Shown here piece by piece: positions 7,357 through 46,892 of a DNA stretch of 64,000 nucleotides. The DNA comes from Trametopsis cervina (lineage: Eukaryota; Basidiomycota; Agaricomycetes; Polyporales; Irpicaceae): assembly GCA_022385755.1 (NCBI GenBank), contig MU278348.1:1741470-1805469 (forward strand), in the 5' to 3' direction. Within the stretch, counting starts at the first letter, position 1. Each line of letters opens with the position of its first letter. The notes below the pieces were generated by a model. It had not been told where the DNA came from. It searched no databases and worked only from the letters and a program-made list of their open reading frames with translations. Position numbers and translations under genes: made by a program.

Positions 7357-9026
<1,670 letters not shown>

Positions 9027-42134: not shown

Positions 42135-44771
42135 ATGGCTTTGCAGCTGTTCCGCGGCACAATATCGCTAGTTGGCCCAGAGGTCGATGCGCTGGCCACA
42201 CAAACAGCTGTCCCGGAGCGATATGAATTCGCTCGCACGAACATCCCATACCATATCACCGTACTTTCCAAGGACGAAATTCGCGACCTCGAGTCAAAGC
42301 TCACTTCAGAGCAAGTCTTCCAGGAGCTCCAGAGAGAACTGGGTTCGGAGCCTCCTTCCCTACACTCTCTCGGAATCGGTGGACATCCAAATCAGTCACG
42401 CCCGGAGGTTCTTTTCGTCGTTATCATATGGGCCAAAGGACAACAGCTTCGTAAAAAGCTCGGGCTCCCTCCGAAACATTTCCACATCACGCTCTCGCAG
42501 CAGGACGCTCACGGCATAGACAAGGGCATAGATTCACTTTTCAGATATGTTTCCACACACTCATCTCCCGAACTACTCGATGACCTGGTTGTCACGCTTT
42601 TCTCGATGGGAAACTATGCTCGAGCGAAGGAGTTCTCGGCGTGGTTATGCGAGAAGACTTCCAATTCGAAGAAGGGTTTCCTCCGCCTTGCAGGTTCGTC
42701 TCTCAAACTCCGGGAGTACAAGACGGCTATGCTCGCTTATGCATGTGCGTACAAACGACCTCCCACGGATGATCTCAAGCCGCAGGCGTTTTGCCTCGAT
42801 AGACTGCTGAGTTGTGCCAAAGAGACGGAATGGGGGCCCATCTGCACGGATGGGGAGATCAGACAGCTTCCCAGGGAGATCAACTGGCTACTCACGGAAC
42901 CCTGGTCGTCGGAGCTGCGCGACCGCATCAACGAAGAGTTCGTACAGGTGCCCACGCTGGTACGCGCGTCGCGCGAACAGCTCTTCCTTCCGCCTCCTAT
43001 ACTCCATTCATCGTCAGACCAGTTCTTTTACCCCCTCCCGCGCTTCTTCAGGTGGCTTGTCCCATACCGCATCGCGCTGATGTCTACCCCTCGTGACGCG
43101 CGCGATATCGAAACTCTTGCATCACCGCATATTGGCATTCGGCATGTCCTCACTTTGACTGAAGAGACGCCTCTTCCGAAGGAGTGGTTTCAAGGAGTCC
43201 CTGTGAAGAACACGTTTTGCCCAATCCCGAATCACTACCCTCCCACCGTCGAACAAATGGACCTCATCGTAAAACTCTTGTGCCAGGAGGAGAATCTCCC
43301 GATGCTCATACACTGTGGAGGCGGTAAAGGCCGTGCAGGAACAGTCGCCGCATGTTACCTTGCTGCTTTCGGTTTCTCACAGCCCCCGCTGAACCGCGCG
43401 GGGCCCACCCACCCAACAATGCCGGCCTCAGATGCCATTGCAGCACTCAGGGCGATTCGACCGGAGAGCATTGAGTCAAAGCAGCAGGAAGCGTTCGTCA
43501 GCCAGTGGTGCAGCACGATATGGAAACGACAATCCGTTTTCCCTGAGGTTGTACCTGAGCCTCCTCCCTCATCGTTAAAGATTGACGGAAAAATCGAGTC
43601 GTCGAGCAATCTCTTCATCTTCGTAGGGCTCCCGGGATCTGGAAAGTCATGGGTATCGCACGCACTCATGGCTCGCGATCCGCGCGGCTGGGCGTGGATA
43701 AACCAAGACGAAGCAGGCAACAGGAGCGCGGTCGAAACAGCCATTGGGCACTCAAGGGCGAAGGAGAGAGTCATACTCGATCGCTGTAACACCTCGAGCG
43801 ATGATCGCAAATCGTGGCTTGCGTTGGCCATGCATTGGGCTGAATCACCTGTGTGCGTCTGGTTCGACTATTCCGTCGATCTCTGTACCTCGCGCGCGCA
43901 AAATCGTATCGACCATCCGACCTTGCCTCCAGGAGGTAGAGTGCGCAACGCGGTCATGCAGATGAAGGAGGTGTTCACTCGGCCCTCTAGACAAGAAGGA
44001 TTTGCAGCAGTGGTCACTATACGCTCGTTTGCCGCAGCGGAGGAGTTCATCCAGACAGTCTCTGCTCCTGTGAACATGCACAGATTCCCAAGGACGGCCC
44101 ATCTGATCAACCTGGGCGCCGCAACCGACGACGATATAGTGTCTGACGGCCTCCAGGTGGACAAGTTCTCAATAGATACGCACGTCGTGATCACGGAGAA
44201 AGTTGACGGGGCCAACATGGGATTCTCCCTGTCCGCCGACAGGACGCAGATTCTTGTGCAAAACCGGTCACACTATATCAACCCACAAAGCCACGCGCAG
44301 TTCAAGAAGTTGGGGCGGTGGGTCGAGTCCCATAGAGAGGATCTGTACAAGATTCTCGGCAGGGATCCCTATTTCGCACAACGCTACGTACTCTTCGGCG
44401 AGTGGCTGACCACGGTGCACTCCGTCACATATACCAAACTGCCATCTTGGTTTCTTGCATTCGATTTGTACGACCGGACGACAGACAGCTGGGCCGACCG
44501 GTCAACCCTCGTTAATATTCTCGCTGATACACAAATTCGGGCGACGCCGTTGATTCATGAGGGGCCCATGCCGTCGGAAGAGGAGCTGAAAGCTATGGTG
44601 CAGCGGCAATCGCAGTTCACTGAGGAGAGGTTGGAGGGGGTATACGTGAAGATGGAGCATGAGGGGAAGGTTGTCGCTAGAGGCAAAGTGGTGAGGAGCG
44701 ACTTTATTGCTGGGAATGAGCACTGGACAAAGGGTAATCTTCGTGCAAACCAGCTCGAGGTTAAAGAGTAA
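42135..44771 (+). CDS. Four-domain RNA repair protein: 2H phosphodiesterase - phosphatase - kinase - Rnl2-type RNA ligase
   Basis: One intronless 878-codon frame from the ATG at 42135. Domains in order: (1) residues about 5-145, a 2H/LigT-like fold with YHITVL (H40, T42) and FHITLS (H117, T119), as in 2',3'-cyclic phosphodiesterases; (2) about 150-290, a helical linker region; (3) about 305-465, a dual-specificity phosphatase with HCGGGKGR (C394, R400); (4) about 490-650, a P-loop kinase with GLPGSGKS (K504), NQDEAGNR and DRCN, as in polynucleotide kinases; (5) about 655-878, a nucleotidyltransferase ligase with EKVDG (K689), LFGEW, EGVYVK (834-839) and RGKVVR (K851). Together these could open a cyclic phosphate, phosphorylate 5'-OH and seal RNA. 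Fungal tRNA ligase Trl1 has ligase-kinase-phosphodiesterase order and a different ligase, so this is a separate repair enzyme. Biochemical roles are inferred. Confidence 0.9.
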   Translation: MALQLFRGTISLVGPEVDALATQTAVPERYEFARTNIPYHITVLSKDEIRDLESKLTSEQVFQELQRELGSEPPSLHSLGIGGHPNQSRPEVLFVVIIWAKGQQLRKKLGLPPKHFHITLSQQDAHGIDKGIDSLFRYVSTHSSPELLDDLVVTLFSMGNYARAKEFSAWLCEKTSNSKKGFLRLAGSSLKLREYKTAMLAYACAYKRPPTDDLKPQAFCLDRLLSCAKETEWGPICTDGEIRQLPREINWLLTEPWSSELRDRINEEFVQVPTLVRASREQLFLPPPILHSSSDQFFYPLPRFFRWLVPYRIALMSTPRDARDIETLASPHIGIRHVLTLTEETPLPKEWFQGVPVKNTFCPIPNHYPPTVEQMDLIVKLLCQEENLPMLIHCGGGKGRAGTVAACYLAAFGFSQPPLNRAGPTHPTMPASDAIAALRAIRPESIESKQQEAFVSQWCSTIWKRQSVFPEVVPEPPPSSLKIDGKIESSSNLFIFVGLPGSGKSWVSHALMARDPRGWAWINQDEAGNRSAVETAIGHSRAKERVILDRCNTSSDDRKSWLALAMHWAESPVCVWFDYSVDLCTSRAQNRIDHPTLPPGGRVRNAVMQMKEVFTRPSRQEGFAAVVTIRSFAAAEEFIQTVSAPVNMHRFPRTAHLINLGAATDDDIVSDGLQVDKFSIDTHVVITEKVDGANMGFSLSADRTQILVQNRSHYINPQSHAQFKKLGRWVESHREDLYKILGRDPYFAQRYVLFGEWLTTVHSVTYTKLPSWFLAFDLYDRTTDSWADRSTLVNILADTQIRATPLIHEGPMPSEEELKAMVQRQSQFTEERLEGVYVKMEHEGKVVARGKVVRSDFIAGNEHWTKGNLRANQLEVKE

Positions 44772-45048
44772 ACCGTGTATAACAATATTACGTCTGATAC
44801 ATAATTTCTTGCCAATCGTGCGTGTCGGGCGCACGCTGTTCGCGCGTTCGTGGCATCTGCCGACCAACCCGCAGGCGATCATGCAGCGTGCGCGTGCAAA
44901 ATGTAATGATCTTTTAGGTCGCGTCCGGGAGATTGGAAGATTGCGCGCACGATTATCGTTATAAAACATTCTCTCAGGCTCTCACTCCCACCACCATCTT
45001 CGGCTTGCTAGCATCTAACGTCGATACTCTTACGTTCATTCACGCATC

Positions 45049-46362
45049 ATGTCCTACTCCGTCTTCGCTCTGGGCAACCCCTTGCTCGATATTCAGGTCT
45101 ACAATGGCGAAGAGCTGTTGAAGAAGTATGATCTCAAGGCAAACGACGCCATCCTCGCTGAGGAGAAGCACACATCTCTGTGAGTCTGCTAGTTGGTTTC
45201 CATCCTATATATTCCTGATTGTGCTGTTCAGCTACGAGGAACTCGTGAAGAACTACACTCCGACCTACGTTGCTGGTGGTGCCGCGCAGAACGCTGCTCG
45301 TGGAGCTGCCGTGAGTTTATGTTCGTTCCCAGGGGTCACACTGTCGGTGTCTAACGCATGGGAACATTTCCCTCGACACAGTATGTCCTCCCACCCAAGT
45401 CCGTCGTCTACACCGGTGCCGTCGGAAACGACGAGCTTGCTGAACAACTCAAGGCCGCCAACAAGCGCGAGGGATTGGACCAGGTCTACCTCGTGAAGGA
45501 AGGCGAACAGACCGGTGCATGTGGTGTTGTTATTACGGGACACAACCGGTACGCTCGTGCCTCGCTCAAATAGCCTATTGCTTTTCTGACAGACGTGCAG
45601 ATCCCTCGTGACCACCCTTCGTGCGGCTGAGAAGTTCGAAAAGTCCCACCTGTCCTCACCAGAGGTCGCTCCCCTCATTGACGGTGCTAAGCTGTTCTAT
45701 GTTGAGGGCTACTTCCTCACTCATGGCACCGAGTCTGCTCTCGAGCTCAGCAAGAAGGCGTCGGAAGCTAGCAAGGTAAGCATTGACGGTCCCGCACCAG
45801 CAATAAATGCTAATACGAAATTCGCGTAGATCTTCGTCTTGAACCTGTCTGCGCCTTTCATCCCCCAATTCTTCGGTGTTCAGCTCCAACAAATCATCCC
45901 CTACACTGATATCATCATTTGCAACGAAACCGAGGCGGAATCATGGGCGACAGCCACTGGGCTGCCGCACACAGACCTGCCAAGCATTGCTAAGGCACTG
46001 GCTAGCCAACCCAAGGCCAACGCCGCTCGCCCTCGTATCGTCGTTATCACCCATGGCGCCGAGAGCACCACCGTAGTCACCGCCAACGACGTCGAGAACG
46101 CCCAGACCTACCCCGTCCATGCCCTTACTGACTCCGATATAGTCGACACGAACGGTGCTGGAGATGCTTTCGCGGGCGGATTCATCGGTGCATATGTTAG
46201 CGGCAAGTCGCTCGAGGAGAGTGTCGAGGCAGGCCACAAGCTCGGCTCGATGTGCGTCCAGCTGGTGCGTGATCTTTTGGTTGTCTTTACGCTCGCAGTA
46301 TGTCTTACCTCCCGTTGCAGGTTGGACCTCAATACAAGTGGCCCAAGGTCAACATTTTGTAA
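45049..46362 (+). CDS. ADO1: Adenosine kinase (PfkB family)
   Basis: Six exons: 45049-45179, 45232-45310, 45382-45548, 45601-45775, 45830-46264 and 46321-46362, giving 342 aa, the usual length. The reaction is adenosine + ATP to AMP, in purine salvage and the methylation cycle. Marks: SVFALGNPLLDIQV, the YVAGGAAQNAARGAA substrate loop, GAVGNDELAEQL, ICNETEAESWA and the PfkB signature DTNGAGDAFAGGFIGAY with the catalytic Asp. The C-terminus is the conserved VGPQYKWPKVNIL. Only 277 nt separate it from the RNA-repair gene upstream, on the same strand. Confidence 0.97.
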
Positions 46363-46892
46363 CGATCCGATAAGAACTATCGGTAATACCACGCTTTCAA
46401 CAGCAGCATGCTCTCAACAGCAACTTAGGTCACACATTTGCATAACAATTAGACTCAGCTTTCCCCAGCTTGTATCATAGACAATTAATGTAGTGATAGG
46501 CAGTTCTAGCTCCTCTGAAGCCGTTGGATACCTACCGGTAGCATGCACCAGTGCATATTGCCCCGAGTGTCACATAGCGATACTCGACGATGCGACGATA
46601 GTCCATATGTACGTCCGTATTGTCCGCAGGAGCATTGAAACCAATACCAATGTTCGCGACGCTTCCTATGTAAGCAAGGGACCGCGACTGCCAAGGGCCC
46701 AGTGAATTCCAGGAAGACTGACACACGCCGTAGATGAAACTCACGAGTTAAGTTGAGATGAACTCCCTGAGATAATAAATGGAAACAGCAACGCGTCAAG
46801 CCCAAAGAGAAGTGGTCGATTCCTAGCACAACCGTGGTCAGAACGCGCCCTCCATGCGCACCGAAGTTAGCTCGCCTGTGTTAGCATATCGG
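46363..46892. other. Intergenic, convergent 3' ends
   Basis: Between adenosine kinase and the minus-strand zinc-finger gene. No supportable gene, repeat or RNA was seen. The exact left end of the zinc-finger gene is uncertain, so a little of this may be its 3' UTR. Confidence 0.4.

Follow-up and report, generated by a model that had tools for sequence, protein, structure and literature searches.

A predicted single-polypeptide RNA repair protein of the Swiss Army Knife kind in the polypore Trametopsis cervina

The repair gene and its domains

The window analysed here, the whole 64,000-nucleotide stretch of DNA, comprises bases 1741470–1805469 of contig C1 in the 29.4-Mb assembly of Trametopsis cervina, a polypore of the Irpicaceae. 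At 42135–44771 on the forward strand, translation gives a single open frame of 878 residues without an internal stop; the chance of an open run of 878 codons is ~3e-13 at the stop-codon density of the window. The first in-frame ATG is at 42135, and the mechanically called open reading frame takes a TTG further upstream (42003) as its start. All 878 residues are 100% identical in P0002, a deposited T. cervina protein, and this agreement supports the single exon proposed in a preliminary description of this DNA. The gene and its features are as follows:

42135..44771, + strand: whole gene, 878-residue SAK-type putative RNA repair protein; one exon, stop TAA at 44769–44771
42159..42512, + strand: 2H phosphoesterase domain, residues 9–126, PF22547 2H-SAK (81.2 bits)
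42252..42260, + strand: first HxT motif, H40-I-T42 (H in 157/178, T in 158/178)
42483..42491, + strand: second HxT motif, H117-I-T119 (H in 165/178, T in 148/178)
42552..42827, + strand: TPR-like helical linker, residues 140–231, with helices on to ~268–270
43038..43499, + strand: cysteine (DSP/PTP-type) phosphatase domain, residues 302–455, PF22784 PTP-SAK (184 bits)
43230..43232, + strand: Asn366, facing Asp in five solved chains of four proteins (Asn in 213/222)
43311..43340, + strand: phosphatase P-loop HCGGGKGRAG with C394, K398 and R400 (C in 222/222, K in 218/222, R in 218/222)
43602..44060, + strand: PNK-type P-loop kinase domain, residues ~490–642 (AAA_33, 45.9 bits)
43626..43649, + strand: Walker A GLPGSGKS with K504 (K in 186/189; 2 gaps, 1 Arg)
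44070..44768, + strand: Rnl2-type ATP-dependent RNA ligase domain, residues 646–878, PF09414 (RNA_ligase, 114.9 bits over residues 683–853)
44196..44210, + strand: ligase motif I, EKVDG; K689 is the lysine expected to be adenylylated (K in 176/177, 1 gap)
44391..44408, + strand: ligase motif III, LFGEWL (G755 and E756 in 177/177)
44634..44651, + strand: ligase motif IV, EGVYVK (E834 in 173/177)
44679..44696, + strand: ligase motif V, RGKVVR (K851 in 174/177)

Downstream on the same strand, the stretch 44772–46480 holds a pfkB-family kinase gene, which we take to encode probably an adenosine kinase. Models from four species (P0002, P0003, P0059 and P0082) join the two genes into one. We rejected a true fusion because the two genes are delimited separately in this DNA: the repair gene ends at its TAA, and the kinase opens with an ATG at 45049, 277 bases past that stop. 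P0003 and P0059 retain the internal kinase Met after dissimilar linkers, and P0002 and P0082 are without that kinase start. The fusions are probably annotation errors, two gene models having been merged.

The preliminary description had read a 2H enzyme, a phosphatase, a kinase and an Rnl2-type ligase into one protein, and a Pfam search bears this out: all four enzyme domains score above the curated cut-off, which is 27 bits for each of the 2H-SAK, PTP-SAK, AAA_33 and RNA_ligase profiles. Their order, with the helical region included, is 2H-TPR-PTP-PNK-LIG. As had been claimed, this order is unlike that of Trl1, the ligase is of the Rnl2 type (no PF09511 match at E up to 1, with HMMER filters) and a phosphatase is added.

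An AlphaFold2 model of the protein has a pLDDT of 86.3 and a pTM of 0.61, the latter leaving the arrangement of the domains unsure. Part by part, the predicted phosphatase matches DUSP23, the kinase fungal kinase–GDP structures and the ligase T4 Rnl2, in agreement with the earlier assignments; the ligase also matches Naegleria and trypanosome RNA ligases. Searched by phmmer against PDB sequences, the ligase domain alone found no match at E up to 10. For the model of residues 1–300, Foldseek gave no match at E 0.001 (best E 0.0076, 8ye5). TPR proteins were abundant in that Foldseek list, with Acb1 (7t27), which we take to be a 2H enzyme, at rank 14 (E 0.073–0.077, probability 0.69), and helical-repeat chains predominated in the VIA list for the same residues. 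The TPR-like helical region (~140–270), a feature absent from the preliminary description, probably tethers the modules or docks a partner.

Is the architecture new? It had been called unusual, and the order is real, but it belongs to an already-known family: Pfam names 2H-SAK and PTP-SAK after the "Swiss Army Knife" (SAK) protein, and 142 of 239 homologues share the five-part order. No tested feature separates the T. cervina protein from these orthologues, and some homologue source names read "Swiss Army Knife" (e.g., P0194 and P0230). SAK RNA repair proteins are reportedly described by Burroughs and Aravind (2016, NAR 44:8525). A later paper that cites this work applies the name "Swiss-army-knife" to a family of HAD phosphatases (PMC7824862). 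The 2H-SAK profile matched none of 14 control prokaryote genomes; the PTP-SAK profile matched 8 of the 14, 6 of them above cut-off, and its name alone is therefore unspecific.

The broader family assignments are clear for the ligase, which matches PF09414, carries the nucleotidyltransferase motifs and has the Rnl2 fold, and which stays below the cut-off of the narrower Rnl2 equivalog (NCBIfam TIGR02307, 14.1 bits versus 197.15). T4 RNA ligase 2 and the Naegleria RNA ligase differ from the SAK ligase, which is fused after three healing modules and ends 24 residues past motif V. The kinase domain is similar to those of mammalian PNKP and bacterial Pnkp, and the NCBIfam PNKP profile TIGR01663 reaches 38.4 bits versus a cut-off of 502.8, over profile positions 329–501 of 520 only. 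By sequence, the two nearest solved kinases are 9d8a and 9drz, both of which carry titles naming GDP complexes. The 3′-end phosphatase of PNKP and Pnkp is a HAD or metallophosphoesterase domain, whereas that of the T. cervina protein is of the cysteine type.

Catalytic sites and the phosphatase pocket

The catalytic residues H40/T42, H117/T119, C394, R400, K504 and K689 lie where the preliminary description had placed them, and the ligase motifs at residues 753–758, 834–839 and 849–854 are present in the alignment. Among 121 aligned proteins, counting both P0001 (the window protein) and P0002 (its own deposited record), C394, R400, K504 and K689 are invariant (121/121), H117 is kept in 118 and H40 in 113. 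Wider domain counts, from which sequences covering <60% of the domain profile were left out, add D525 in all 189 kinase domains. The exact H-T-H-T set occurs in 142 of 178 2H domains and 36 deviate, making the 2H site the one under the weakest constraint of the four, although some of these 36 variants may reflect errors in gene models or alignments.

Tested as a canonical DSP/PTP enzyme, the phosphatase retains the Cys and Arg of CX5R (C394 and R400) and lacks the Asp of the IPD loop, presumably the general acid. In alignments, this loop reads PD in five solved chains (four proteins, with two chains from DUSP23) versus PN in the T. cervina protein, so that Asn366, on which the preliminary description was silent, stands opposite the Asp of solved relatives. 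The P-loop HCGGGKGR has a Lys where these relatives carry Phe, Tyr or Leu: DUSP23 (VHZ) combines the IPD-loop Asp with GFGR, whereas the T. cervina protein combines Asn with GKGR. Both features are family-wide, position 366 being Asn in 213 and Asp in 4 of 222 phosphatase domains, with N366 and K398 together in 210.

PTEN carries a similar P-loop Lys, and RNA triphosphatases of the cysteine-phosphatase superfamily are not known to need an Asp acid. Judged from sequence, the simplest inference is that the SAK phosphatase pocket would be adapted to RNA ends of high charge, and the exchange of Asn for Asp could make its activity weak or altered. The signature formed by Asn366 and the P-loop Lys may be new, and the family-wide Asn poses a sharp, testable enzymology question.

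Does the phosphatase act at all? The phosphatase and the variable 2H domain might instead be regulatory or partly inactive, serving as RNA-end sensors or acting on small-nucleotide signals, with kinase and ligase as the working core. Such a division would suit the prevalence of N366, the 36 2H variants and the 21 PTP-PNK-LIG and 21 TPR-PTP-PNK-LIG proteins among the 239 that have no recognisable 2H domain. However, the phosphatase Cys is retained in every domain and the Arg in 218 of 222, and several of the proteins without a 2H domain may owe this to incomplete gene models; we consider this alternative distinctly improbable.

Relatives in eukaryotes, viruses and plasmids

Relatives were collected by protein searches (best 120 of 432, best 120 of 131 and best 120 of 573 matches). 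Two of these searches contributed 238 new proteins, which together with P0001 form the set of 239 to which our own domain profiles were applied. Besides the 142 five-part proteins, the set holds 31 with 2H-TPR-PTP only, 21 TPR-PTP-PNK-LIG, 21 PTP-PNK-LIG, 11 2H-TPR-PTP-PNK and 3 LIG-PTP-PNK; the partial architectures are inflated because a 470-residue query drew shorter proteins, and truncated models certainly contribute to them. A permuted, ligase-first order was seen as LIG-PTP-PNK in P0236 and as LIG-PTP in a Polarella protein (P0237).

Fungal relatives among the matches listed come from Kwoniella, Rhizoctonia, Tulasnella, Tuber, Rhizina, Aureobasidium, Myriangium and the chytrid Gaertneriomyces, and others from Phytophthora, Globisporangium, Trebouxia, Guillardia, Polarella and the fern Adiantum, where the contig is 139 Mb long. 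Partial sets occur in several of them: 2H-TPR in Guillardia, 2H-TPR-PTP in Phytophthora and Rhizina, LIG-PTP in Polarella, and no recognised kinase in Tuber and one Aureobasidium protein. A Pfam scan of seven distant relatives found PTP-SAK and RNA_ligase in all seven, AAA_33 in six and 2H-SAK in four, so not all lineages show every part. All five parts are present in four bdelloid rotifer proteins among the matches listed (two from Rotaria, one each from Adineta ricciae and Adineta vaga), and contamination is unlikely for the A. vaga protein (P0248, I4U23_009105), which lies on a 16-Mb contig. A record labelled Pseudogymnoascus (P0138; 45% identity over the 470-residue query) could be contamination.

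Giant-virus relatives were seen in the structure library alone. Foldseek aligned much of the model with a Terrestrivirus protein of 859 aa (26% identity, E 3.8e-60) and a Bodo saltans virus protein of 649 aa (22% identity, E 2.7e-34), with low whole-model TM-scores (0.26 and 0.17). The whole architecture was not found in genome contigs, where 60 stretches gave 7 loci, all confined to the ligase part, nor among the best 80 of 99 viral contig matches, 78 of which match only from residue 614 on and two (L028 and L081) reach the kinase. Phages gave 13 records, none covering >26% of the query, and plasmids 30, the 20 listed covering ≤28%; a phosphatase-only viral scan confirmed 0 of 32 stretches. 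The closest plasmid ligases among the matches listed have 33–34% identity in the ligase part only.

In three of three plasmid loci examined (L096:3248-5708, L097:3056-5684 and L098:3060-5678), a DUF3696-type ATPase gene is followed by one for a ~176-aa protein and then by the related RNA ligase. The ~176-aa protein begins IDTNVLL, which we take to be PIN-like. Scanned in two of the loci, this protein matches PADLOC HEC-03A; HEC-03B is matched by the Aeromonas plasmid ATPase, and no PADLOC model matches the Aeromonas ligase. The row is perhaps an RNA-cutting defence carrying its own repair ligase. In a large viral contig, a P-loop kinase (L028:4992-5996) is followed 1.7 kb on by an Rnl2-like ligase (7679-8566), so that two of the SAK activities stand in an operon-like arrangement.

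A tree of the phosphatase-to-ligase core was built from 39 of 40 proteins chosen from 258, one permuted protein being dropped. Several placements emerged: (i) the bdelloids fall in one clade with three other proteins (100/100); (ii) Kwoniella falls within the main Agaricomycete group (99/99), where it pairs with one protein (100/100); and (iii) ascomycetes take up two or more well-supported, separate positions, with Aureobasidium next to a chytrid (96/91) and Myriangium with others (99/97). The bdelloid clade adjoins the basidiomycetes, which suggests a shared rotifer–basidiomycete origin, but we did not retain it because the joining fork is weak (82/90) and includes an oomycete and Rhizoctonia. 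The distribution, patchy across ascomycetes, basidiomycetes, a chytrid, oomycetes, algae, a fern, bdelloids and giant viruses, may be new in its breadth; the patchiness suggests horizontal spread without giving directions.

A second ligation route beside Trl1

Trl1 heals both RNA ends and seals them as one protein, leaving a 2′-phosphate that Tpt1 removes. In the T. cervina genome, matches to the Trl1 ligase, then the kinase and then the CPD domain line up along the C14 minus strand (81356-83772), the CPD match lacking the first 61 profile positions, and Tpt1 is matched on C22; all three PF09511 matches lie on C14. The co-presence with Trl1 that the preliminary description had raised is confirmed for all three Trl1 domains, and Tpt1 is present as well. 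An RtcB profile, which matches 9 of 14 control genomes, had no match in the same six-frame search, a method that can miss split exons. The repair gene is the sole match of both PF09414 and 2H-SAK. PTP-SAK exceeds its cut-off at two further loci, C23:97388-97735 (45.1 bits) and C6:1070593-1070712 (33.3 bits). With Trl1 domains and Tpt1 present and no RtcB match, the SAK protein would be a second ligation route.

What would this route be? From the domains, their conserved residues and predicted folds, and the company of Trl1 and Tpt1, we infer reactions, substrate and role. The protein is very probably a single-polypeptide RNA end-healing and sealing enzyme of the SAK kind. The 2H domain would open a 2′,3′-cyclic phosphate, and the cysteine phosphatase would then remove the terminal phosphate so produced, leaving a 2′,3′-diol. 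The kinase would phosphorylate the 5′-OH, and the Rnl2-type ligase would self-adenylylate at K689, transfer AMP to the 5′-phosphate and seal the 3′-OH to the 5′-P. Rnl2-type ligases require a 2′,3′-diol, which would explain the extra phosphatase; as the phosphatase would strip the 2′/3′-phosphate, the Tpt1 step would be unnecessary, unlike in the Trl1 route. Trl1 shares with this scheme the single protein for healing and sealing, but has the order ligase-kinase-CPD, a PF09511 ligase and no phosphatase, depends on Tpt1 and lies at a separate locus.

The likely target is RNA cut by metal-independent RNases such as ribotoxins, anticodon nucleases or stress RNases. Repair of ribotoxin or anticodon-nuclease damage is our preferred candidate role, plausible if still tentative, and to this extent the interpretation in the preliminary description is partly supported. 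No experimental study of a SAK protein was found among the literature matches listed, a search with subscription papers mostly outside its coverage. A study of two bdelloid species reports that fungal attack raises 50–70% of the RNA ligase genes, ~15 per species, and suggests ribotoxin repair; the top matches of the induced ligases are bacterial or phage, and RNA ligase is without enrichment under desiccation (PMC11258130). Given such matches, these ligases may be of another type. Two RNA ligases predicted to be horizontally acquired are raised after radiation, according to another report (PMC10809525).

A bolder proposal, which we hold unlikely, makes SAK a self-contained, horizontally spreading eukaryotic defence against RNA-cutting weapons that would move among fungi, oomycetes, algae, a fern, bdelloid rotifers and giant viruses. 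It would stand beside the resident splicing ligase and use a distinct type of cysteine phosphatase, which would act on RNA 2′/3′-phosphates with an extra Lys in its P-loop and no Asp as general acid.

Alternatively, SAK could be a backup or specialised splicing enzyme, joining tRNA exons or HAC1/UPR mRNA and not repairing damage. It should take the same ends as Trl1, whose domains occur in the same genome; yet Trl1 and Tpt1 already cover such work, and the patchiness across eukaryotes together with the giant-virus relatives suits conflict better than core splicing. We rank toxin-made break repair first and backup splicing, an improbable explanation, second. Finally, many deposited records are titled "ATP dependent DNA ligase" and the kinase resembles that of mammalian PNKP, a DNA repair enzyme, but a DNA or mixed nucleic-acid repair enzyme is highly improbable, as the ligase matches RNA_ligase (PF09414) and the T4, Naegleria and trypanosome RNA ligases, and a 2H phosphoesterase suits 2′,3′-cyclic ends, a feature of RNA that DNA does not have.

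If break repair by the SAK protein is correct, fungi that own a tRNA-splicing ligase keep a second, one-polypeptide RNA-mending machine. RNA repair outside splicing could then be put to a direct test in mushrooms that grow in culture, Coprinopsis cinerea (P0091) among them, with a possible link to warfare with RNA-cutting toxins.
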